Shown here: positions 4,837 through 22,782 of the stretch, in pieces
Layout: each line of letters begins with the position of its first letter
How positions within the stretch are numbered: position 1 is the stretch's first letter
Virus record (IMG/VR): IMGVR_UViG_3300031772_000172
Coordinates: 1-32,469 of that record
Length of the DNA stretch: 32,469 nucleotides
DNA from: a virus
Direction: 5' to 3' (one strand)
Translations under genes and position numbers: made by a program
Notes under the pieces: model-generated
Databases searched by the model: none
What the model was told of the DNA's origin: nothing
What the model saw: only the letters and a program-made list of their open reading frames with translations

Positions 4837-5814
4837 ATGACTGTTACAGTATATCGTTCAACTGATATTAGTGCGCCAGTATTAAATGGTTCCGCTGGCT
4901 CTCTAGTCACAGTTTTAGATGCTTGTTTAGTTTTAGGATATGGCTCACAACTTCCTGCTGGATGGTCGGTTGCAGCTACCGCAACTAACAAACGAATTTA
5001 TAAACAAGGAATCGGTAGCAATCAACGCTTTTTGAAAGTCGATGATTCTGGTGCTGATGCTACAGCGGGACAAAATGCAAGAGTTTCTGGATGTTTAAGA
5101 TTTACAGATATCAATACATTAGTTGAAGAATTTCCTGGGAATCCATTAGGAGCCAGCGGAAATTCTTATTTGTTTTGGATAAAAAGTAATGCAACACCTG
5201 GAACTGCTCGTCCATGGATTATTATAGCTACATCAAGTTTTTTCTGGATTTATATTCAAACTATCGATGGGGGAGGAGTTACCATTCAAAATCAATTTTT
5301 TGGTGATTTTACACCAACAATGGCAAATGACAAATATAATACAATTATAACTGGCCAATTCTTCACTAGCACTCCAGACTCTGTTAATTTAACCTTAAGC
5401 ACTTCATATATTGTTTCATCACCAGTTGCGTTTTGTTTGAGAAATCTATTACAAATGCCAGGAACTGCATCTAATGGATTAATTTCCGAGTCATATTTTT
5501 TAAGTGGCACTAACTATGGTAACGGAGGGTTGGTTTACCCGAACACTCCAGATGATAAATTATATGTAACCAACATTAATGTTATCGAATCTCCAAAATA
5601 TGCAAGATCGACATCATCAACTAATCATGGATATATTAGAGGAATTCTGCCAGGAATGGTAGTGCCTTGCCATAATGGAAATTCATTTTTAAGTGCAGGA
5701 CAAACAATTACAGGAATAAACAATTTACCTGGGAAGACATTCGAAGCTAGACCAGTTGGGCAAGGTGCTTTAGCAAAGAAATGGATTTTATTCGAAACAT
5801 CAAATACGTGGTAA
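4837..5814 (+). CDS. Tail-associated paralogue family, copy 1
   Basis: The 325-residue product starts with MTVTVYRSTDISAPVLNGSAG and a LDACLVLGYGSQLPAGW segment, has a W-I-x-x-A-T-S-x-F-F-W-I-Y-I centre, a FFGDF motif, an R-G-x-L-P-G-M motif near the end, and closes with LFETSNTW. The same order of motifs occurs in the three genes that follow. I recognise this as a widespread phage protein family encoded next to tail fibre genes, usually annotated hypothetical. Its biochemical role is unknown; a virion-surface or adhesin-accessory role is inferred from location. The ATG follows the tail fibre stop after one base, so translation is probably coupled. Confidence 0.8.
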   Translation: MTVTVYRSTDISAPVLNGSAGSLVTVLDACLVLGYGSQLPAGWSVAATATNKRIYKQGIGSNQRFLKVDDSGADATAGQNARVSGCLRFTDINTLVEEFPGNPLGASGNSYLFWIKSNATPGTARPWIIIATSSFFWIYIQTIDGGGVTIQNQFFGDFTPTMANDKYNTIITGQFFTSTPDSVNLTLSTSYIVSSPVAFCLRNLLQMPGTASNGLISESYFLSGTNYGNGGLVYPNTPDDKLYVTNINVIESPKYARSTSSTNHGYIRGILPGMVVPCHNGNSFLSAGQTITGINNLPGKTFEARPVGQGALAKKWILFETSNTW

Positions 5815-5817
5815 CTT

Positions 5818-7092
5818 ATGACAACTACAGTTTATAGATCAACAGATGGCGGCGCACCAAAATTATCTAGCCAACCCGGAAGCTTAATTGAAGTTCTTGA
5901 TTATTGCTTGTTAAGTTCAGGTTGGACAAGACCGTATTTTAAGGCTGACGGTAGTGTGCCTTACGGATTCGTAGGAGCAGTATATCGTCAAGGTGCTGGT
6001 AATATGTATTACCTAAAAGTCGATGATGAATTTAATTCATTATCTCCCCCAGGAAGTGGTAATTTTTCAGTTGGAAATGCCGCTATAGTAACTGCTTATA
6101 AATCAATGTCAAGTTATACAAGTGGAACTGAGCCATTTCCATTCGTAAAAAGTTATGTTCCTGCTACTAATAACACAAGCTCACCGGGCGTCGTTGGGAA
6201 TTTGACTCCAATTTATTTTAGAAAAGCATCGGCGGGTGTTTCAGGCTCATTTTCTCAACCGGGCTCATTTACTGCATCATATGGTGCATTTAGCACGACT
6301 TTAACAAGTACAACTAGAATCCAAGGAGTGTTGATGGAAGGAACAACTTTAACATGTCCTTCGTGTGCGCCAACAGGCACTGTTCTTTCTTTTATCGATC
6401 CATTTAATGTAACAGTTTCATTACCAACAGCAGCACCCCAATCTGGAGTCACAGTTTCATATACGCAACTAGTGGGATTTGTTCCTTGGACGGTTATAGC
6501 AACAAACAAAGGTTTTTATATGTATGTCCAGTGGGGTTCTGTAAACAGTACTCAATTATATTATTTTGGAGATTTCGTTTCAACAAAAGATGACGAAACT
6601 AATAATTGTATTTTAATAGGAACAACAAGTACCTCCGCTTTTGTTGTATCAGTTTCTTCAGAATTCCTAAATATAACCGCATCAACAAATGTGGTTGATA
6701 CGTCGTCAAGTATTCCAGCGGCATCTTTCTTTGATTACAATCCTATTGCTCCAGCGCGAGGGAAGGACACAGGCGCGGATCAGATTAACGTTATCAGTGC
6801 TGGAAATACCGCAAACTTTGGAATATCTTACCCCGATCCAAGTACATCAAATTTATTTTTAAGCCCAATTCTATTATTAGAAAGATATGATCCGGGTGTC
6901 GGGGATGGATCAAGATATTCCACGGTAAGGGGAACTTTACCTGGATCATGGTCCACAGAAGCTTCAGCTTTAAATTATTTCTTGCACGCAGACACATTTA
7001 CTGGCGTGGGTGATTTAGCGGGTAAGTCTTTTGAATTTTTTAAATTAAATAATATTGCTTTGGTAGCAATCGAAACTTCGAGCACTTGGTAA
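5818..7092 (+). CDS. Tail-associated paralogue family, copy 2, with domain insertion
   Basis: This 424-residue member has the family start (MTTTVYRSTDGGAPKLSSQPG), a YLKVDDEF motif, the YYFGDF motif, RGTLPGSW near the C-terminus and an AIETSSTW end. It is about 90-100 residues longer than its neighbours. The extra length is mostly one block at about residues 141-221, between FRKASAG and PWTVIATNKGFY. In copy 1 the corresponding elements (FWIKSNATPG and RPWIIIATSSFF) are nearly adjacent. The inserted block is rich in Ser, Thr and Val and contains TCPSCAP, the only CxxC in the array. It reads like an acquired beta domain. The gene begins three bases after copy 1 ends. Confidence 0.8.
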   Translation: MTTTVYRSTDGGAPKLSSQPGSLIEVLDYCLLSSGWTRPYFKADGSVPYGFVGAVYRQGAGNMYYLKVDDEFNSLSPPGSGNFSVGNAAIVTAYKSMSSYTSGTEPFPFVKSYVPATNNTSSPGVVGNLTPIYFRKASAGVSGSFSQPGSFTASYGAFSTTLTSTTRIQGVLMEGTTLTCPSCAPTGTVLSFIDPFNVTVSLPTAAPQSGVTVSYTQLVGFVPWTVIATNKGFYMYVQWGSVNSTQLYYFGDFVSTKDDETNNCILIGTTSTSAFVVSVSSEFLNITASTNVVDTSSSIPAASFFDYNPIAPARGKDTGADQINVISAGNTANFGISYPDPSTSNLFLSPILLLERYDPGVGDGSRYSTVRGTLPGSWSTEASALNYFLHADTFTGVGDLAGKSFEFFKLNNIALVAIETSSTW

Positions 7093-7097
7093 CTAAT

Positions 7098-8090
7098 ATG
7101 ACAATACAACTCTATAGCTCAACCGACACAGGCGCACCAGTTCTTAACGGAACTGCATCTGCTCTAATTGGCGTGTTAGATGCATGTCTGGTGAATGGTT
7201 ATGGATCAAGAACTTCGCTTGGTTGGACCAAGGCGTTTTCTGGTGCCGATCTGGCGGCTTATCTAATGTCGGCAGGAAGTGGAGTATATCTTAGAGTCGA
7301 TGATTCCGCAACAACAACCACCAAATTACGTGGTTTTACTACAATGTCAGATGTCAATACTGGCACAAATCCGTTTCCTACTGTCGCGCAGTCCGCGAAT
7401 GGTGGCATTGCAAATAAAACCGATGGCGCAACTGCGGCAACTGCAAGAAAATGGATAGTAGTTGGGACAAGCACATATTTTTATTTTTGGAACCAATTAA
7501 CATTAAAAGAAACTGCTAGTCAAGCAAATACAGCTTGGTTCTTTGGTGATGTTGCATCTTATGGCGGCGTTGGTAATACAATGTTAATTGCAAATGCAGT
7601 ATCCATATCAACAGGAGGTTCAAATGTTCCTAGCTGCACTTCGGTTAGTAACAGTGCAACATCACCTGGACATTGGATAAACCAACCATACGCAGGTGGA
7701 ACTTCGGTGGAAGTCAGTAAACATTTTGCTTATCAAGTGGGAACAGACGGAACAAGTGGTGGAGCTAATCCATTTCTTGGCCCAACCACACCAAATAGAA
7801 TAACTGGTGGTCTTACATTTTGTCCATTCTGGATTGTACAAGCTACACCTACTAGAATATTGAGAGGTACTTTGCCTGGATCATTAGCAGCAATGAACTT
7901 TGCACCACTTTCTCAAGGGACTAAATTTCAGTTTGATAATTCAGTTGGTCTACCTCAAGCAGGGAAAAAATACATATATTTGGATACAAGAAGTGGATTT
8001 GGTGTAGAACAAGGCTTAGCGGCTGAATATAACATAGACGGCATATTAAATGCACAACAAAGTAGTTATTTTTTAATGTTTGGATTCTAA
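7098..8090 (+). CDS. Tail-associated paralogue family, copy 3, divergent C-terminus
   Basis: This gene encodes 330 residues from ATG 7098. An in-frame TTG at 7086 overlaps the preceding gene, but the family start M-T-I-Q-L-Y-S-S-T-D begins at 7098, five bases after the upstream stop. It contains VLDACLVNGYGS, YLRVDDS, ARKWIVVGTSTYFYFW, WFFGDV and LRGTLPGSL in family order. Unlike the other copies it does not end in E-T/V-S-N/S-T-W. Instead it has YIYLDTRSGFGVEQGLAAEYNI followed by an extra tail that closes with FLMFGF. The tail could mean that this copy contacts a different partner. Function is unknown, as for the other copies. Confidence 0.8.
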   Translation: MTIQLYSSTDTGAPVLNGTASALIGVLDACLVNGYGSRTSLGWTKAFSGADLAAYLMSAGSGVYLRVDDSATTTTKLRGFTTMSDVNTGTNPFPTVAQSANGGIANKTDGATAATARKWIVVGTSTYFYFWNQLTLKETASQANTAWFFGDVASYGGVGNTMLIANAVSISTGGSNVPSCTSVSNSATSPGHWINQPYAGGTSVEVSKHFAYQVGTDGTSGGANPFLGPTTPNRITGGLTFCPFWIVQATPTRILRGTLPGSLAAMNFAPLSQGTKFQFDNSVGLPQAGKKYIYLDTRSGFGVEQGLAAEYNIDGILNAQQSSYFLMFGF

Positions 8091-8099
8091 GGAAAAATC

Positions 8100-8258
8100 A
8101 TGGCAGCACTCGGCGCGATAGCACAATTAAAACCACCCGGTAATTTCTATTATAATTTGAAGCTACCTCTTCCTTCATCTTATTGGTCTTACCAATCTTT
8201 TCCAACGGTTACACTAGTTATAAGTACAACAACCTACAACAAGGCCCTGCCAATATGA
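8100..8258 (+). CDS. Small 52-residue protein between paralogues 3 and 4
   Basis: A short frame starts at ATG 8100 with a good AAGGA ribosome site (8089-8093) and ends at TGA 8256-8258. It encodes 52 residues beginning MAALGAIAQLKPPGNFYYN, proline- and tyrosine-rich with a hydrophobic, Thr-rich second half. Its stop overlaps the next start as ATGA (8255-8258), a classic translational-coupling junction. It explains why the fourth paralogue has no recognisable family sequence before residue 25 when read from an upstream ATG. I do not recognise the protein. Its position inside the tail array suggests a small virion or assembly component. Confidence 0.6.
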   Translation: MAALGAIAQLKPPGNFYYNLKLPLPSSYWSYQSFPTVTLVISTTTYNKALPI

Positions 8259-9214
8259 GCGTAGATGTTTATACATTCCAAGATCCTGGTGCCCCTCAGT
8301 TAACGGGCACCGCTGGAAGTTTGATTACTGTCCTGGACGCAACTCTAGTTGTTTCCGGCTGGACAAAATCTTTCTCTGCTGCGAATAAAGCTGTTTATCG
8401 TCCACCATCAGGTAATCAATTTTATTTAAGAGTTGATGATACTGGATTAGATGCGCCCGTAGGTGGATCTGCTCGTGTGACAGCATATGAAAATATGACT
8501 ACAGTGGATGCCGGCACCGGTCCATTTCCATCAGCCGCGCAAGGTGCATCAAGTGCAGGTCATGTTTTGTGGCATAAAAACATGACAGCGGCTGGCGCTG
8601 GTGGCGCTTGGAGAATTATAGTCACGCCAACATTTGTCTGGTTTTGGGTTAGAGCGCAGACAAGTTCAACTACTGGAACTGGATTTGTTTTATGTTGTTT
8701 CGGTGACGTACCATCGAAGAAGTCTGGAGACGCATTTAATACAATTGTATTAGGTAATATAGCCGCGACGTTTGCTGGTAATTATATAAACACAGGAATC
8801 GAGGCAGTGATTTCAACTGTGACTCCCGCAGCAGCAGGTGGAATGTTCATTGCGCGCCAGCAAGATCAAACAGGAACGTCACAAGCAATAAGATTTGTGC
8901 CTTTTGAAAGTGATAAAATGGCAGTTACTTCGGTAGGCAAATTAAGCAACGCAACAGTATTCACCGCCCCACATATTCCAGATGGAAAACTTTTCTTTTC
9001 AACGTTGGAAATTGCCGAAAAACCAGCAGCCAGTTCTTACTGGAGAGCTACATTGCCAGGGTTGTATTCATTAGTTGGAATGGGCAATGCATTTTTCACA
9101 GATGACGCTGAATTTACAATCGGTGGAAAGACATTACTTGCTGCTAGAGTCTCAACAACTTCTGCAACATGGGTAGATGGCTGGGTGTTATTTGAAGTCT
9201 CTAATACGTGGTAA
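8255..9214 (+). CDS. Tail-associated paralogue family, copy 4
   Basis: This gene encodes 319 residues from ATG 8255. The open frame extends back to 8183, but the upstream 24 codons overlap the small gene at 8100 in another frame and do not look like the family. The family start M-S-V-D-V-Y-T-F-Q-D-P-G-A-P-Q-L-T-G begins exactly at 8255, so that start is chosen. It has AGSLITVLDATLVVSGW, FYLRVDDTG, WRIIVTPTFVWFW, CCFGDV and WRATLPGLYS motifs and ends LFEVSNTW. It is the last gene before the replication block, and its stop is followed by the 177-base gp32 leader region. Confidence 0.8.
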   Translation: MSVDVYTFQDPGAPQLTGTAGSLITVLDATLVVSGWTKSFSAANKAVYRPPSGNQFYLRVDDTGLDAPVGGSARVTAYENMTTVDAGTGPFPSAAQGASSAGHVLWHKNMTAAGAGGAWRIIVTPTFVWFWVRAQTSSTTGTGFVLCCFGDVPSKKSGDAFNTIVLGNIAATFAGNYINTGIEAVISTVTPAAAGGMFIARQQDQTGTSQAIRFVPFESDKMAVTSVGKLSNATVFTAPHIPDGKLFFSTLEIAEKPAASSYWRATLPGLYSLVGMGNAFFTDDAEFTIGGKTLLAARVSTTSATWVDGWVLFEVSNTW

Positions 9215-11523: not shown

Positions 11524-11910
11524 ATGCGTGATTCACTATTTGTTAGGAAAGATTTTTTAATGCATAGTGGAGGTACTGCTCATTATAAGATTGAAGCAGA
11601 CGCTCTCACCTGTGAAGATATTGAAACTCTAGCCTGGATTATTTCCCAAAAAGGAAAATTCCGTGCAGTACACGGAATTTCTAGTGGGGGCGATAGGCTG
11701 GCGAAAGCATTAGAAAAATATAAATCTATTGAAGGTGTTAGATTAATCATAGATGATGTAATTACTACAGGTAAATCAATGGAAGAAACCAAGCAAAGAT
11801 TAGGTTGGCGCGATGCAATAGGTATTGTAATTTTTGCAAGAAATCGACCTCCAAGTTGGGTTCATGCAATGTTTGAAATGACGTTTTTTAACTCAGAGGA
11901 TGTTTTTTAA
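11524..11910 (+). CDS. Phosphoribosyltransferase-like protein
   Basis: The 128-residue product contains VRLIIDDVITTGKSMEE (72-88), the PRPP-binding signature of type I phosphoribosyltransferases: hydrophobic strand, D-D, then T-T-G. AVHGISSGGDRLAKAL (49-64) corresponds to the preceding loop and helix. The general arrangement is closest to orotate phosphoribosyltransferases, but it is short for that enzyme (about 200 residues), lacking most of the N-terminal hood. It may act in nucleotide salvage or in modification of a nucleotide; the base substrate cannot be read from sequence. It is coupled to uvsX (CAGGAG ribosome site overlapping the uvsX stop) and is followed after one base by the nucleotidyltransferase gene. 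Confidence 0.75.
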   Translation: MRDSLFVRKDFLMHSGGTAHYKIEADALTCEDIETLAWIISQKGKFRAVHGISSGGDRLAKALEKYKSIEGVRLIIDDVITTGKSMEETKQRLGWRDAIGIVIFARNRPPSWVHAMFEMTFFNSEDVF

Positions 11911-11911
11911 T

Positions 11912-12949
11912 ATGGACAGTCAGCAACTAGCGAAAGATGGGCTCATCTGTGAAGTTATTTCTGGCTCACATGCATATGGAACTAATCTTCCCACGAGTGA
12001 TTTTGACACTCGTGGTATCTTTGTTGCTCCTGAAATTTGTATTAGAACTCCATTTTTCAAGATCGAAGAAATTAAAGATCAACAAAAAGAAGATACTTCA
12101 CTGTACGAATTAACTAATTACATGCGATTGCTAGTCGATCAAAATCCAAATATATTGGAATTGATTTGGTCACATCCTTCTGACATTATTTTTTCCACTC
12201 CAATATACGAGCGATTACGCTCTGATAGATATAATCTTTTATCCTCTAAACTAGCATATACTTTCACTGGGTATGCTCTTAGTCAGATTAAGCGGATTAA
12301 GGGGCATAATAAGTGGATTAATAACGTAGCTCCTGTTGAACTCCCTCAACAAAAAGATTTTCTATCTGTGATATTTAATATGACAGATATAAACGAATGG
12401 AACAAAAAAGTTCCTTTAGTAGATTTTCTTGCACGTGATTTGGGTAATAATATATACGCGCTTTATCAATCTACAGGTAAACATTGGTTTGATACTCATG
12501 GAAATCCAATAGTACAACCAAAAGAGTTTTGGGATACCTCCATTTCTACCCCTGAATTGATCGTAAAAATCAATATAGATCAGTTTAACGCTGCAAAAGA
12601 AAACTGGAAAAATTATTGGACCTGGAAAAAAAATCGTAATATCAAACGTTCAGAGTTGGAAGAAAAATTTGGATATGATACTAAACATGCTATGCACCTT
12701 GTAAGATTGCTCCGTATTGGATATGAAGCTTTGACTGAGCACGAAGTAATGGTAAAACGTCCAGACGCACAAGAATTACTTGCTATTAGACGTGGTGAAT
12801 GGACCTATGACAAAATCGTTGAATACGCAGAAGGAATGCAGGAAAAAGTTATGTCTGCGTATGAAACAACTTCTCTTCCACGATCTGTCGATATTAACTA
12901 CGCCGCTGACCTTCTAATAGAATTACAAGATATGGCTTGGAAAAAATAG
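11912..12949 (+). CDS. Predicted nucleotidyltransferase (COG3541/YcgL type)
   Basis: This gene encodes 345 residues from ATG 11912. A nearer ATG at 11900 is in frame, but the AGAGGA ribosome site (11895-11900) only fits the 11912 start. The N-terminus carries SGSHAYGTNLPTSDFDTRG (17-35), the polymerase-beta-type nucleotidyltransferase motif G-S-H-A-Y-G-T...S-D-x-D-x-R-G with likely metal ligands D30 and D32. Further on, HAMHLVRLLRIGYEAL is the conserved helix seen in this family. Family members occur in bacteria and large phages; the nucleotide acceptor is unknown, with RNA or tRNA repair a frequent suggestion. Placement beside a phosphoribosyltransferase may be functional or simply reflect a nucleotide-metabolism cluster. 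Confidence 0.85.
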   Translation: MDSQQLAKDGLICEVISGSHAYGTNLPTSDFDTRGIFVAPEICIRTPFFKIEEIKDQQKEDTSLYELTNYMRLLVDQNPNILELIWSHPSDIIFSTPIYERLRSDRYNLLSSKLAYTFTGYALSQIKRIKGHNKWINNVAPVELPQQKDFLSVIFNMTDINEWNKKVPLVDFLARDLGNNIYALYQSTGKHWFDTHGNPIVQPKEFWDTSISTPELIVKINIDQFNAAKENWKNYWTWKKNRNIKRSELEEKFGYDTKHAMHLVRLLRIGYEALTEHEVMVKRPDAQELLAIRRGEWTYDKIVEYAEGMQEKVMSAYETTSLPRSVDINYAADLLIELQDMAWKK

Positions 12950-12960
12950 GATTTTTTGTT

Positions 12961-13031
12961 AATGTTTATGGATTATTTAAAACTCCAAAATATCAAAAAG
13001 AACAGCTAAATAATAGTTCAACATAAACATT
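12961..13031 (+). repeat. 10-bp inverted repeat spanning an intergenic gap
   Basis: AATGTTTATG (12961-12970) is the exact reverse complement of CATAAACATT (13022-13031). The arms are 51 bases apart and bracket most of the 98-base gap before the gene at 13048, whose GTGGAGG ribosome site begins four bases past the second arm. A late-promoter-like GCTAAATA (13005-13012) lies within the loop. It could form an mRNA stem or a paired protein site. Confidence 0.4.
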
Positions 13032-13047
13032 ACGTGGAGGTAAAAAA

Positions 13048-13539
13048 ATGAAAGATATTCGCGAAATGTTAGTACAAAGAGATAAGTTTCACTTAGATGC
13101 AACAAATTCAATTGCATTAGAAATACAATTCGTATTTAATGCAATATTGCAATTTATGGAAGAAGAAGTGGACAATGTTGAGTGGCATGCAATGGAACAT
13201 AGTTCTGATGAAGACGCTATTATGTTTTCTGCTCGCGTTAAACAAAGAAATGGTTTTACCTTGTTTAGTGTAGGTGTTCCTTTGACAATCATACTACAAG
13301 GTTCCGCAGAAGTTATTGTAGCATTTCTTGAAAAAACGAGCAGAGAAGATCGCGCTCAAAAAGAAGCTGCTGAAGCAGATGCACGAAATAATTTAACCAG
13401 TCGAGTTAGACAAGCAATAGAAGGAGATGAAAACGCGATTACTATGGTACCCATAACGAAAAACAATGAAGATATTCCAGAATTAACTGGAGCGGATGTT
13501 TTAAGAGAAGTATATTCTAAAAAAAGGACATTACATTAA
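13048..13539 (+). CDS. Conserved-looking phage protein of unknown function
   Basis: The 163-residue product starts with a strong GTGGAGG site. The N-terminal half is a helix pair with an acidic centre (FMEEEVDNVEWHAMEHSSDEDAIMF). A beta segment follows (FSARVKQRNGFTLFSVGVPLTIILQG), then a long charged helix (about 105-135) and a mixed C-terminus. There are no membrane helices, cysteines or recognisable catalytic motifs. It lies directly upstream of the UvsY-like gene (one base between stop and ATG) inside the recombination block. A role as a small DNA-metabolism accessory is possible, but the sequence alone does not identify it. Confidence 0.75.
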   Translation: MKDIREMLVQRDKFHLDATNSIALEIQFVFNAILQFMEEEVDNVEWHAMEHSSDEDAIMFSARVKQRNGFTLFSVGVPLTIILQGSAEVIVAFLEKTSREDRAQKEAAEADARNNLTSRVRQAIEGDENAITMVPITKNNEDIPELTGADVLREVYSKKRTLH

Positions 13540-17095: not shown

Positions 17096-17359
17096 ATGAA
17101 TGTAGTAAGATCAGCAAGAGGTGAAATAGTTGATTTTGGATTACTTCGAATCAAAAATGAACAAGAACAAGCGGCTTTAACTCCAGTAGGTAAACCTTCT
17201 AAAGTTTTAGTACGTAATGAGAATTTTATAGCTGATAAACAAGCCGCTGCGCGTATCGTTGCAGAAAGCAAAGAAGTTTTAACTGCTGCTATGAAAAACG
17301 AGGATGTACCGGCAGAACCAGTAAGAAAAATTTTAAAAAAAGATAAATCAAATGCTTAA
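17096..17359 (+). CDS. Small conserved phage protein of unknown function
   Basis: The 87-residue product starts MNVVRSARGEIVDFGLLRIK, an N-terminus I recall from small proteins of T4-like marine and freshwater phages, where V-R-S-A-R-G-E-x-V-D-F-D-L-L-x-I-K is conserved. The rest is charged and helical with a Lys-rich end (KILKKDKSNA). AAAGGAG upstream gives a strong start. The gene overlaps the GroES-like gene by eight bases, so the two are probably expressed together. No function is known to me. Confidence 0.75.
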   Translation: MNVVRSARGEIVDFGLLRIKNEQEQAALTPVGKPSKVLVRNENFIADKQAAARIVAESKEVLTAAMKNEDVPAEPVRKILKKDKSNA

Positions 17360-17657
17360 ACCAGTCGGAAAAAGTATACTTTTTGTATTCCTTGACGATG
17401 TGTCTGGTGGATGGTTTTACGAAAAAACATCTGGTGGACTAATTGTACCAAAAAATGTAGACTCCAATATCACACAATGTCGTTGGGGTAAAGTTGTTGC
17501 TGTTGGTGCTGATGTTGATGAACTCATCAAACCTAAAATGAATGTTTTAATCGAAGCCATGAAATGGACTACTGGCGTTGATTATGATGGAATCAAAATT
17601 TGGCGTACAAATTATGATTCAATTGTGGGTATTGAAGAAGAATCAACGACTGCATAA
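17352..17657 (+). CDS. GroES/gp31-like co-chaperonin
   Basis: The 101-residue protein has the GroES fold signature: a KPVGKSILF first strand, a mobile-loop-like TSGGLIVPKN (26-35), then GKVVAVGADVDELIKPKMNVLI (46-67), and a closing ...YDSIVGIEE strand. GroES-type proteins cap GroEL. Phage versions such as T4 gp31 replace host GroES and enlarge the folding chamber so that the major capsid protein folds. The loop tripeptide LIV corresponds to the I-V-L that contacts GroEL. Length matches GroES (97) and T4 gp31 (111). It overlaps the small gene upstream by eight bases and has no strong ribosome site of its own. Confidence 0.85.
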   Translation: MLKPVGKSILFVFLDDVSGGWFYEKTSGGLIVPKNVDSNITQCRWGKVVAVGADVDELIKPKMNVLIEAMKWTTGVDYDGIKIWRTNYDSIVGIEEESTTA

Positions 17658-18751: not shown

Positions 18752-19696
18752 ATGTCTGAATTAAAACAACCATGGGATAAAAAATATCAACCAAAAACCC
18801 TCTCGGAATACATTTTTCAAACTCCTCAAGATAGAAATATCTTCCGCAAGATTATAGATAACGCGCAATTACCAGGAAATTTATTATTAAGCGGAGTGCA
18901 AGGAACCGGTAAAACAAGTCTCGCGTTAATTCTAGTTAACGAACTTAATATCGATCCAATCGATTTCCTATTTGTTAAGGCATCACAAGAAAATTCTGTT
19001 GATGTAATGCGAGAAAAAATTAAGGATTTTATTGGTTCATATCCTATTGGAGATTATAAAGTTGTATTACTAGATGAAGCTGACCTAATTTCCTTAGCTG
19101 GTCAAGGTGTTTTGAGAAATTTATTAGACCAAAGCATTTCCACAGGAACCTCGCGTTTTATCTTGACCTGTAACTATGAATATAAAATAATTCCAGCGGT
19201 TAAATCTAGACTACAACAATATCGTTTTAAGGCGCATGATAAAAATGATGTAACTGATCTTGCAGCAAATATTTTACTACAAGAAGGCATAAAATTTGAT
19301 TTGCCTTTATTGGACAAATATGTTAATTTAGCATATCCAGATATTCGTAAACTAATCGTTTTATTGCAACAACATTCGATAACTGGCATACTCGTAGAAC
19401 CATCTGCTGAAAGAGCCGATAGTGATTATAGGCTTACAATGTTCCAATATCTAGAAGAAGGTAAATGGGTTGAATTACGTAATCATCTTTGTGAAAACGT
19501 AGCAACTGAAGAATGGGACGAAGTGTATAGATTTTTATATGAAAATCTTAATAAAGCTCCAGGATTTAAAACCTCTAACAAATGGGAAGAGGGAATTGTT
19601 ACCATCGCTGAATACTTATATAGAAATACCAGCGTAGCCGATCCAGCAATAAATTTTTCAGCTTGTATTATTAGACTACAACAAATAATTGGATAA
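18752..19696 (+). CDS. 44: Clamp loader ATPase subunit, gp44-like
   Basis: The 314-residue product is nearly the length of T4 gp44 (319). Four gp44 subunits with one gp62 open and load the gp45 sliding clamp at primer junctions. The N-terminus PWDKKYQPKTLSEYIF is the clamp-loader signature. Walker A is GVQGTGKT (48-55) and Walker B is VVLLDEAD (103-110). Sensor 1 is in RFILTCNY (135-142). KSRLQQYRF (151-159) corresponds to the S-R-C motif with its arginine finger R153, the Cys being Leu here. The C-terminal helical collar follows. It is the first gene after the sigma-70-like promoter; the gp62-like gene is four genes downstream in the same operon. Confidence 0.92.
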   Translation: MSELKQPWDKKYQPKTLSEYIFQTPQDRNIFRKIIDNAQLPGNLLLSGVQGTGKTSLALILVNELNIDPIDFLFVKASQENSVDVMREKIKDFIGSYPIGDYKVVLLDEADLISLAGQGVLRNLLDQSISTGTSRFILTCNYEYKIIPAVKSRLQQYRFKAHDKNDVTDLAANILLQEGIKFDLPLLDKYVNLAYPDIRKLIVLLQQHSITGILVEPSAERADSDYRLTMFQYLEEGKWVELRNHLCENVATEEWDEVYRFLYENLNKAPGFKTSNKWEEGIVTIAEYLYRNTSVADPAINFSACIIRLQQIIG

Positions 19697-19701
19697 AAAT
19701 A

Positions 19702-21663
19702 ATGAATAAAACAGAAACTATTGAATTAATTAAATCACGGCGTGTTAAGCTTTTATCCATTGGTGATGAGCTTAAATCTGAATTTTTTGGATTAGATAAT
19801 GTTATTGATAGAATTATCAATTCAGTTCAGACGTGGTACTTACTACCAGAAGCCTTAGTATTTCCTGTTATCATTAATCTTTGGGGTCTTACTGGTGTTG
19901 GTAAAACAGATCTTGTTCGCAAGTTAGTCAAAAAACTAACTTTTCAAGATAGATTTGTTGAAATTCAAATGGATGGATTTAGTAATGGCGGATATTTTCA
20001 AGATTCCGTTTGTGAAATTTTACAGACTTCTTCGATTGACGAAGGAAGCCCAGGTATTATTCTTTTAGATGAATTCCAGCGCTTTAGAACAATAGAAATG
20101 AATGGAAAAGGCGAATGTAAAGAATTAGAGGTTAAACGTTTCCAAGATGTTTGGATGCTGTTAAGTGACGGAAAATTTGCATCTGACTATTCTTTATACA
20201 CAAAAATTCAACGAGAACTTTTGAATGATGCTTACAATGATGATAGAAAGAAAAGTGAGGAAGATGAAGAAAGAGAAGTAGTATATGAAAAAGAATCAGA
20301 AAGAACAAAAAGAAGAGATAATAAAACACAGAATCAAACTATACATATTAAAAAATTTGGTATGAATCCATGGCAAGCTCTGGATTACAAAAAACTATTA
20401 AAATTAAAAGAACCAGTATCAGAAATTATGACTTGGGATATTCAGAAGATTAATTATCTTTGTCAGGAAGCTCTTAATAAACGTATTTCTGGTGAATTTG
20501 ATTATTCTAAATGTTTAATTTTTATTTGTGGTAATTTGGACGAAGCATTTAAAATGGCTAGTTCTGCATTAGAAGACTGTGATACAGATGCAGATATCTT
20601 TCATGAACAAACCAAAAAATTATCAGTCATAGATATTAAACGAGCGCTTCAAGAACGATTTCGCCCCGAGCAAATTGCGCGAATGGGTAATACCCATATA
20701 ATTTACCCATCTCTTTCAAGAGAAAGTTATGAAAAAATTGTTAAAACCACTTCGGATCGTTATTCAGAAAAATTATTAGAAAAGATTGGAGTACCATTTA
20801 CATACGATAATTCTACATATACAGAAATTTATAAAAATGCTGTATATCCGACTCAAGGTACAAGACCAGTTTTTTCGTCTGTTCACCAGATTCTAAGTTC
20901 TCCGATGGTTGATTTGTCTATTTGGGCGATTGAAAATAACATTCCACAGTTACATATAACTATTGATGAATCTCAAAGCGTATTAACCGGAACATATGGA
21001 GAATTTTCTAAGAGTATTCCAGTTTTATTAGATATACGCGCACAGCGCGAACGAAACACTGAAGATTTTAATACTTTAGTTGCGGTTCATGAGGCTGGTC
21101 ATTCTTTGGTATACGCAGTATTACGTGGGTGCGCTCCAAAAGAAATAAAAATAAATTTAGTATCATTCAAGGGTGGTTTTAGCACCTTCGATGATCAGGA
21201 TGTACTAGATAAAAAAACGGTGGAAAATATTATTTCAGAGGGTTTGGGTGGCGGTGTAGCTGAAGAAATTATTTTTGGAAAAGATTACAAAACTAACGGC
21301 TCTGTGAGCGACTTAACTTTAGCAACAGAGATGGCAGCGAAATACATAAAATATTGGTGTTTTGCTAATAATGTTGCTCAGATTAGATGCGAAGGAAATA
21401 CAGAATGGGCACCATCAAATTATAAAGATTATGATTATGATATTGAAGAACTAGTTAAAACCCAACGAAATATTGCCGAAAAAATTATCCGAGATTACAT
21501 TGAACTATTTAAAATAATAGTGTGTAAACTTCTAAAAAACGAAACTATCACAAAAAAAGAATTCGTAGAAATAGCAAAACCATTTATACCAAATATAAAA
21601 GAAACGATTGATGAAGTATCACCCCCATATTCAGATATATGGGACAATTTTATGTTATCATAA
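19702..21663 (+). CDS. Clp-type AAA+ ATPase fused to an FtsH-type (M41) zinc metalloprotease domain
   Basis: This 653-residue protein has two enzymatic modules. Residues about 20-430 form a Clp/HslU-clade AAA+ domain: Walker A GLTGVGKT (62-69), Walker B IILLDEFQRF (119-128), sensor-1-like FICGN (274-278), a RFRPEQIARMG segment (319-329) and sensor 2 GTRPVF (386-391). A highly charged insertion lies at about 178-215. Residues about 445-630 resemble peptidase M41: the zinc site HEAGH (463-467) with catalytic E464, GLGGGVAEEIIFG (514-526) and GSVSDLTLAT (533-542), whose D537 matches the third zinc ligand of FtsH. No membrane helix precedes the ATPase, unlike FtsH. The likely role is ATP-driven unfolding and degradation of specific proteins; substrates are unknown. 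It starts five bases after gp44. Confidence 0.85.
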   Translation: MNKTETIELIKSRRVKLLSIGDELKSEFFGLDNVIDRIINSVQTWYLLPEALVFPVIINLWGLTGVGKTDLVRKLVKKLTFQDRFVEIQMDGFSNGGYFQDSVCEILQTSSIDEGSPGIILLDEFQRFRTIEMNGKGECKELEVKRFQDVWMLLSDGKFASDYSLYTKIQRELLNDAYNDDRKKSEEDEEREVVYEKESERTKRRDNKTQNQTIHIKKFGMNPWQALDYKKLLKLKEPVSEIMTWDIQKINYLCQEALNKRISGEFDYSKCLIFICGNLDEAFKMASSALEDCDTDADIFHEQTKKLSVIDIKRALQERFRPEQIARMGNTHIIYPSLSRESYEKIVKTTSDRYSEKLLEKIGVPFTYDNSTYTEIYKNAVYPTQGTRPVFSSVHQILSSPMVDLSIWAIENNIPQLHITIDESQSVLTGTYGEFSKSIPVLLDIRAQRERNTEDFNTLVAVHEAGHSLVYAVLRGCAPKEIKINLVSFKGGFSTFDDQDVLDKKTVENIISEGLGGGVAEEIIFGKDYKTNGSVSDLTLATEMAAKYIKYWCFANNVAQIRCEGNTEWAPSNYKDYDYDIEELVKTQRNIAEKIIRDYIELFKIIVCKLLKNETITKKEFVEIAKPFIPNIKETIDEVSPPYSDIWDNFMLS

Positions 21664-21672
21664 GGAATGAAA

Positions 21673-21906
21673 ATGACTATAAAAAGAATACACGTAAATC
21701 GACATGCTATAGCCAAAAATAAAAAATATGGAACGTGTGATCCTGTAATTTCAGTTAAAACCAGCAAAGATAATAAAACAGGACACCACGTATCTGTTAT
21801 TGTGGGTAAGAAAGTTGTTTGTGAAGTCGTGTATCGACCAGAAAAACCTTTATCGTGTGGTGCTGTTTTATGGATTGAAACTAAGGAAGAAGTCGTAGTA
21901 TCATAA
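21673..21906 (+). CDS. Small basic conserved phage protein
   Basis: This gene encodes 77 residues from ATG 21673, chosen because AAGGA (21662-21666) is correctly spaced for it; an ATG at 21667 would add two residues. The segments IHVNRHAIAKNKKYGTCDPVISV and EKPLSCGAVLWIET resemble a small phage family I have seen repeatedly, with a conserved N-x-H-x-I-x-x-N-x-K/R start and a P-L-S-C-G-A end. It is predicted to be all beta, with no catalytic signature. It is the third gene of the gp44 operon. Function unknown; the basic charge fits nucleic-acid binding, which is inference. Confidence 0.75.
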   Translation: MTIKRIHVNRHAIAKNKKYGTCDPVISVKTSKDNKTGHHVSVIVGKKVVCEVVYRPEKPLSCGAVLWIETKEEVVVS

Positions 21907-22305: not shown

Positions 22306-22782
22306 ATGCCAACAGAAAGAAAACTTGATTTGTTTAAACTTCTTGATGCCATAAACAAAAAAAAGATCACTTACTATAGAGAGTTATCTGAAGAAGAACA
22401 AAAAGAATTTGTTCCTCTAATCATAACACGCTGGTTATCAGGAACCAACGACATTGGACAACTAGTTTTCTTGAATGAAATTGTAAATCCATTTGTATTT
22501 GATCTAGCCAAACACAAGGAACTTTTATATATGTTAATGACCGTCTGTACAGACGGTAAGTTTAAAAAATATGTTTGGAAGAAAGCTAAAGGCAAAGCTA
22601 TACCTTCGATGCCAGTTTCTATTGGAGTTCTTAAACAAGTTTTTTCATATACCACAAAAGAAGCATTAGACGTTATTAGTATCTTTAATGTAAATGATAT
22701 AATAGAGCACGCAGAATTTTTGGGATATGAAAAAGACGAAATAAGTAAAATTAAAACCGAGTTCAAAAAATTAATAATATGA
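22306..22782 (+). CDS. 62: Probable gp62-like clamp loader small subunit
   Basis: This is a 158-residue, all-helical protein. FVPLIITRWLSGTNDIGQLVFLNEIVN (about 31-57) followed by HKELLYMLM and KKYVWKKAKGK parallels T4-like gp62: a helix with a Y/F-x-P-x-I-x-N/T-R-x-L-S motif, an N-x-x-N pair, then a K-R-x-x-x-W-x-K basic segment. The C-terminus EALDVISIFNVNDIIEHAEFLG resembles the Y-x-x-S-x-x-K-A-x-x-x-L-x-x-L-x-x-x-x-I end of marine-phage gp62. In T4, genes 44 and 62 are adjacent; here three genes intervene. The overall match is from memory and the protein is shorter than T4 gp62 (187). Its stop overlaps the next ATG by four bases. Confidence 0.6.
   Translation: MPTERKLDLFKLLDAINKKKITYYRELSEEEQKEFVPLIITRWLSGTNDIGQLVFLNEIVNPFVFDLAKHKELLYMLMTVCTDGKFKKYVWKKAKGKAIPSMPVSIGVLKQVFSYTTKEALDVISIFNVNDIIEHAEFLGYEKDEISKIKTEFKKLII
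22540..22557. repeat. 18-bp perfect palindrome inside the gp62-like gene
   Basis: ACCGTCTGTACAGACGGT reads identically on both strands. It encodes T-V-C-T-D-G in the gp62-like frame and is much richer in GC than its surroundings. It could be a protein-binding site or an mRNA hairpin, or be chance under coding constraint. Confidence 0.5.

Follow-up and report, generated by a model that had tools for sequence, protein, structure and literature searches.

The DNA analyzed here (the window) is a stretch of 32,469 bases from an IMG/VR virus record, which carries a T4-like replication set, namely a gp32-like SSB, UvsX, UvsY, a helicase, a minimal DNA polymerase III piece and clamp loader subunits, as well as tail genes. 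From its letters alone, one open reading frame (ORF) had been read as a Clp-clade AAA+ ATPase fused to an FtsH-type M41 protease, which raises the questions of whether the two halves truly belong to these different families and what such a protein might do in a phage.

The open reading frame and its motifs

The ORF starts with ATG, is open throughout its 653 codons and encodes 653 aa. A 379-kb phage contig keeps the frame single and intact at 58% identity, as do further phages and bacteria at about 30-44%, so that a chance ORF is excluded. The motifs quoted in the sequence-only reading are all present, with GLTGVGKT at residue 62, RFRPEQIARMG from 319, GTRPVF at 386, HEAGH at 463 (the numbering of E464 was correct) and GSVSDLTLAT around D537. 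The features of the gene are as follows, with fractions giving conservation among 34 fusion proteins:

19702..21663, + strand: Clp-type AAA+/M41 fusion gene (ORF reading, Pfam, NCBIfam)
19702..21036, + strand: AAA+ module, residues 1-445, Clp/Hsp100 D2 type, without a separate N-terminal domain (PDB profile, structure match)
19885..19908, + strand: Walker A GLTGVGKT, residues 62-69 (K68 in 34/34)
19987..19998, + strand: putative pore-1 loop GGYF, residues 96-99, aligned near the ClpX GYVG loop (alignment; aromatic in the stretch in 30/34)
20059..20073, + strand: Walker B ILLDE, residues 120-124 (D123, E124 in 34/34)
20179..20493, + strand: insertion, residues about 160-264, at the position of the ClpX RKH loop/pre-sensor-1 hairpin (model, alignment; 80-131 aa in 33/34)
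20524..20535, + strand: sensor 1, N278 (34/34)
20665..20682, + strand: PEQIAR with the presumed arginine finger R327 (34/34; aligned to ClpB PEFINR)
20857..20868, + strand: sensor 2 GTRP, R388 (34/34)
21070..21573, + strand: peptidase M41 domain, residues 457-624 (Pfam 6.7e-20; PDB profile 5e-31 to FtsH; model match to 2ce7)
21088..21102, + strand: HEAGH, residues 463-467, with presumed zinc ligands H463 and H467 and base E464 (34/34)
21310..21312, + strand: D537, presumed third zinc ligand (34/34; aligned to the FtsH TTGAENDL aspartate)

Two halves from different protease families

In Pfam searches, the Peptidase_M41 domain was accompanied by a generic AAA match at residues 60-132 and a weak ClpB_D2-small match at 338-405. 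The NCBIfam models for ClpA (1.1e-10), ClpB (2.5e-10) and ClpV match the N-terminal part, FtsH models are confined to residues 453-620, and FtsH_fam scores 57.9 bits, from the M41 part alone, against an equivalog cut-off of 600 bits. Separate AAA and M41 profiles were built from alignments of 21 relatives and searched against all PDB sequences. The AAA profile retrieved Hsp101, Hsp104, ClpB, ClpE, ClpC and ClpA (best 3.2e-16), followed by Msp1 as the first match beyond the Clp/Hsp100 clade (3.4e-8), and FtsH was absent at E<=1e-3, whereas the M41 profile retrieved solely FtsH, YME1, AFG3L2 and FtsHi-type proteins (best 5.3e-31). Of the E. coli proteins, ClpB scored 55.2 bits with the AAA profile, ClpX 18.0, Lon 11.8 and FtsH 4.6, and with the M41 profile FtsH scored 103.5 bits and ClpB -2.1. 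When the halves are searched separately in this way, the N-terminal half matches Clp and does not fall within the FtsH AAA clade. Of the Clp/HslU features that had been claimed for it, the Clp assignment holds and the HslU assignment does not, the closest ATPase relatives being the second rings of ClpB and ClpA.

A full-length structure model (mean pLDDT 81, pTM 0.69) divides along the same line. Residues 1-440 match Skd3, ClpX, ClpC and ClpB (Z 21-22, about 270-307 residues, rmsd 3.2-4.3), and residues 451-638 match AFG3L2, while the M41 half alone superimposes on FtsH 2ce7 with Z 20.5 and an rmsd of 2.4 over 170 residues; in sequence alignment, the presumed zinc-site residues align with those of FtsH. 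Within the insertion, residues 188-218 have pLDDT under 50 and are modeled as partly disordered. The split profiles and the model together bear out a Clp-clade ATPase and an M41 protease in one chain. The absence of a membrane helix, also claimed from the sequence, agrees with hydropathy: no 19-residue window of the fusion protein is membrane-like (the highest mean, 1.52, falls around the strand that precedes Walker A), and no membrane-like segment was found near the N-terminus in 27 family proteins, whose best 19-residue means of 1.2-1.8 lie inside folded domains. The ORF thus encodes a Clp/Hsp100 D2-type AAA+ module followed by an FtsH-type M41 zinc protease, without a membrane segment.

These data bear directly on the idea that the protein is a divergent FtsH which has lost its membrane anchor. 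The AAA-M41 order is common to both, and FtsH ranked first in the whole-chain fold search; this ranking arises because both domains match, and the whole-chain alignment, which spans both domains, has a large rmsd (6.7 A), as expected from a domain order in common. However, the AAA half matches Clp rather than FtsH in both sequence profile and structure, and bacterial carriers of the fusion retain a separate strong M41 gene (see below), which makes descent from FtsH by anchor loss extremely improbable.

Conservation and distribution of the family

Fusion relatives were found in four IMG/VR contigs, namely the 379-kb contig (L001, 58% identity) and L003, L004 and L007 (41-43%), and at 24 bacterial genome loci with about 29-38% identity. 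The bacterial carriers, whose records include some metagenome-assembled genomes (MAGs), are mainly Bacteroidota, but also Thiothrix and Methylophaga (Pseudomonadota), Planctomycetota and Actinomycetes, and hence span four phyla. The notion of a phage-specific oddity therefore had to be abandoned, as the fusion is present in bacteria of several phyla; plasmids gave no match to it at 1e-15. Bacterial carriers are rare and patchy: as rough lower bounds, which include the center genome and for which three candidates per genome were scored in the large samples, 5/395 Bacteroidota, 2/398 Pseudomonadota and 8/101 members of the family of G011 carry the fusion. Those bacterial carriers that were checked have, apart from the fusion, a strong M41 match consistent with an ordinary FtsH (in G006, a contig-end fragment only). 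A single genome has the fusion as two frames, broken inside the AAA part (L043 and L044, G447:C1:3477482-3479462), by a frameshift or an error. Beside the Algoriphagus fusion, a second protein is encoded on the opposite strand (L029:10978-12330, - strand), with about 25% identity to the fusions across some 400 residues.

Across the 34 proteins, K68, D123, E124, N278, R327, R388, H463, E464, H467 and D537 are all identical. In the alignment with the GYVG pore loop of ClpX, the corresponding stretch lacks an aromatic residue in 4/34, and the insertion between Walker B and sensor 1 measures 80-131 residues in every protein but that of L029, where it has 14. Such conservation argues against a regulator or remodeling factor that would act without proteolysis and use its M41 part as a structural ring. 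Plants do have inactive FtsHi proteins, and related entries are among the whole-chain fold matches, yet HExxH, the third ligand and all ATPase residues are invariant in 34/34, and we consider a non-proteolytic role very unlikely.

In the tree, which is midpoint-rooted, with some forks open and three long rows, a branch with 100/100 support separates the five phage proteins from the rest. Their clade neighbors a bacterial clade of four phyla, and a second clade is Bacteroidota only, as far as the organisms are named. The position of the phage proteins beside a four-phylum bacterial clade suggests lateral transfer.

Bacterial gene neighborhoods

In one Bacteroidales clade (L019, L021, L022, L023, L030, L031, L049), the fusion lies on the same strand as genes for the RNA ligase RtcB, a PrfH-type release factor, the phosphotransferase Tpt1/KptA and TatD, with fusion-PrfH or fusion-Tpt1 gaps down to 5-12 bp, although not all four genes are present at each locus and L027 is truncated by a contig end. 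This neighborhood of RNA-repair and ribosome-rescue genes is confined to that clade; in other carriers, RtcB is encoded elsewhere or absent. RtcB was not found in phage records G018-G020 and G575 (possibly fragments), nor in the 32,469-base window. A gene for a WYL regulator adjoins the fusion or lies about 1 kb off in L018, L024, L025, L029, L054, L055 and L056. Additionally, a DUF2779 protein is encoded within about 1.3-2.4 kb after the fusion in L018, L024 and L025, and a UDG-family gene is present in L018. A common neighbor gene was sought in the clade nearest the phages, and none was found.

Colicin E3 cuts 16S rRNA. The Bacteroidales loci resemble the RtcB2-PrfH module in that RtcB and PrfH genes adjoin the fusion, and PrfH with RtcB2 guards E. 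coli against colicin E3; the report, however, covers a pair of RNA ligase and release factor, without mention of FtsH, Clp or a protease (PMC9223846). The Bacteroidales operons offer testable clues to the substrates of the fusion.

Phage context of the gene

The fusion gene starts 5 bp past the stop codon of the clamp loader large subunit gene, on the same strand. Its neighbors in the window are:

18752..19696, + strand: clamp loader large subunit, flanking gene (phrog_168, 4.5e-60)
21667..21906, + strand: orf79, small phage protein beside the fusion in the lineage-specific stretch (phrog_8676)
22306..22782, + strand: clamp loader small subunit-like protein, flanking gene (phrog_225, 5.5e-9; syntenic in XacN1 and RAS14)

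Across the replication cluster, L001 is collinear with the window, and the order SSB, UvsX, UvsY, helicase, GroES-like, orf326, clamp loader, orf130, small clamp loader, orf227 is common to the window and the related phages XacN1 and RAS14. Between the clamp loader and orf130, however, nothing in XacN1 or RAS14 matches the fusion or orf79, and in L003, L004 and L007 the fusion lies in surroundings unrelated to the replication cluster. The fusion and orf79 may thus represent either an insertion in one lineage or a loss in the lineage of XacN1 and RAS14, and the scattered positions in L003, L004 and L007 favor an accessory gene. As a dedicated partner of the fusion, orf79 was rejected, since it is present in other phages without a fusion match.

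A second lineage-specific stretch, with orf128, a nucleotidyltransferase and orf163 (11524-13539), separates UvsX from UvsY in both the window and L001; the equivalent regions of XacN1 and RAS14 gave no match to these three genes. Elsewhere in the window, four successive ORFs (4837-9214) match the tail assembly family phrog_9600 and are tandem paralogues. In L003, a nicotinamide phosphoribosyltransferase gene is found near the fusion, with two ORFs between, and a nucleotidyltransferase/NUDIX gene about 3 kb away; phages employ genes of this kind to restore NAD+.

From the clamp-loader operon, a role in remodeling host or phage replication proteins had been proposed, and a factor that remodels or degrades replisome proteins would indeed fit the 5-bp spacing and the synteny in L001. 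This role is not borne out by the comparison, as XacN1 and RAS14 keep the gene order without the fusion and L003, L004 and L007 carry it elsewhere; in the collection of phages, moreover, only the M41 half found matches, and a replication or recombination factor is accordingly unlikely. A chaperone-protease for virion assembly or the processing of structural proteins could be imagined by analogy to the ClpA- and ClpX-like chaperones of jumbo phages, for which a role in assembly has been suggested (PMC7824862). A GroES-like co-chaperonin gene (17352-17657, phrog_3188/phrog_931) also lies nearby, two genes upstream of the clamp loader, as it does in XacN1 and RAS14. Close phage relatives nevertheless do without the fusion, and its bacterial copies adjoin RNA-repair, WYL and housekeeping genes, so this role, too, appears improbable. 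Both readings are less likely than the degradation of host proteins.

Proposed mechanism and function

The fusion is probably an accessory, soluble, single-chain ATP-dependent protease, in which a Clp-D2-type hexameric unfoldase ring is predicted to be stacked on an M41 zinc protease ring. The architecture and the invariant residues are observed, and the activity is predicted. The protein would assemble as a hexamer with the M41 ring attached beneath the unfoldase ring, and the insertion of 80-131 residues would lie at the pore entrance and may select substrates. The RKH loop of ClpX helps to select substrates at pore entry, and it is by analogy that this role is carried over to the insertion. 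ATP hydrolysis, with R327 acting in trans and R388 as sensor 2, would then drag substrates past the aromatic pore loops, to be cut at a site formed by H463, H467, D537 and E464.

The phage copy would be an accessory gene, most likely for degrading particular host proteins such as defense or regulatory factors, as judged from its patchiness and position; its occurrence in phages suggests a means of breaking down host proteins in infection. The bacterial copy would be an accessory stress protease which, beside RtcB, PrfH and Tpt1, probably clears proteins tied to damaged RNA or stalled ribosomes. A wider proposal is tentative and rather doubtful: the fusions could constitute a separate class of AAA+ protease, a soluble metallo-Clp exchanged by phages and bacteria and acting in RNA/ribosome conflicts, with bacteria using it alongside RtcB, PrfH and Tpt1 to remove what damages RNA or results from such damage, and jumbo phages turning it on host defense proteins.

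Comparison with known systems

A limited search of the open-access literature (M41/FtsH with Clp fusions, jumbo phages, RtcB-PrfH) found no description of a Clp-M41 fusion. A survey of 224 jumbo phages names ClpP, ClpS, ClpA, ClpX, SprT and ArdC-like proteins and leaves M41/FtsH unmentioned (PMC7824862). M41 proteases do occur in jumbo phages, as FtsH of PA5oct and MIJ3, and that of MIJ3 was reported to be closer to bacterial FtsH (PMC6892783). By sequence, however, PA5oct FtsH has N-terminal hydrophobic segments and a canonical FtsH AAA module, unlike the fusion. Mere likeness to phage FtsH was rejected as an explanation, because the matches in the phages collection are M41-only and both PA5oct and MaAM05 encode a canonical FtsH. 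In the latter record, named Microcystis phage MaAM05 (L005, MW495066.1), glgX, ftsH, proS and lepA lie close together, and its DNA looks bacterial rather than phage. Among defense systems, PADLOC gave weak AAA matches only, such as DolB of the Dodola system (5.4e-9 over residues 11-129), whose 375-position model has only part of the AAA domain in common with the fusion and leaves the M41 half unmatched.

The energy-dependent proteases established so far comprise ClpXP/AP/CP, HslUV, Lon, FtsH and the proteasome. With FtsH and the m-AAA and i-AAA proteases (MEROPS M41), the fusion shares the M41 fold, HExxH, an Asp as third ligand and the union of ATPase and protease in one chain, but these are membrane anchored and have an FtsH-type AAA module, whereas the AAA module of the fusion is of the Clp D2 type and a membrane segment is absent. 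With the second AAA ring of ClpB, ClpA and ClpC (Hsp100 D2) and with ClpX, it shares the Walker motifs, sensor 1, the PEF/Q..R finger, sensor 2 GxRP and the D2 small domain, but Clp unfoldases have a separate serine protease, ClpP, or none, whereas the fusion carries a metalloprotease in the same frame across the aligned family, and in place of the RKH loop of ClpX it has the 80-131 aa insertion. A self-contained combination of a Clp-type motor and an FtsH-type blade would add an AAA+ protease design that needs neither a membrane nor a partner subunit.
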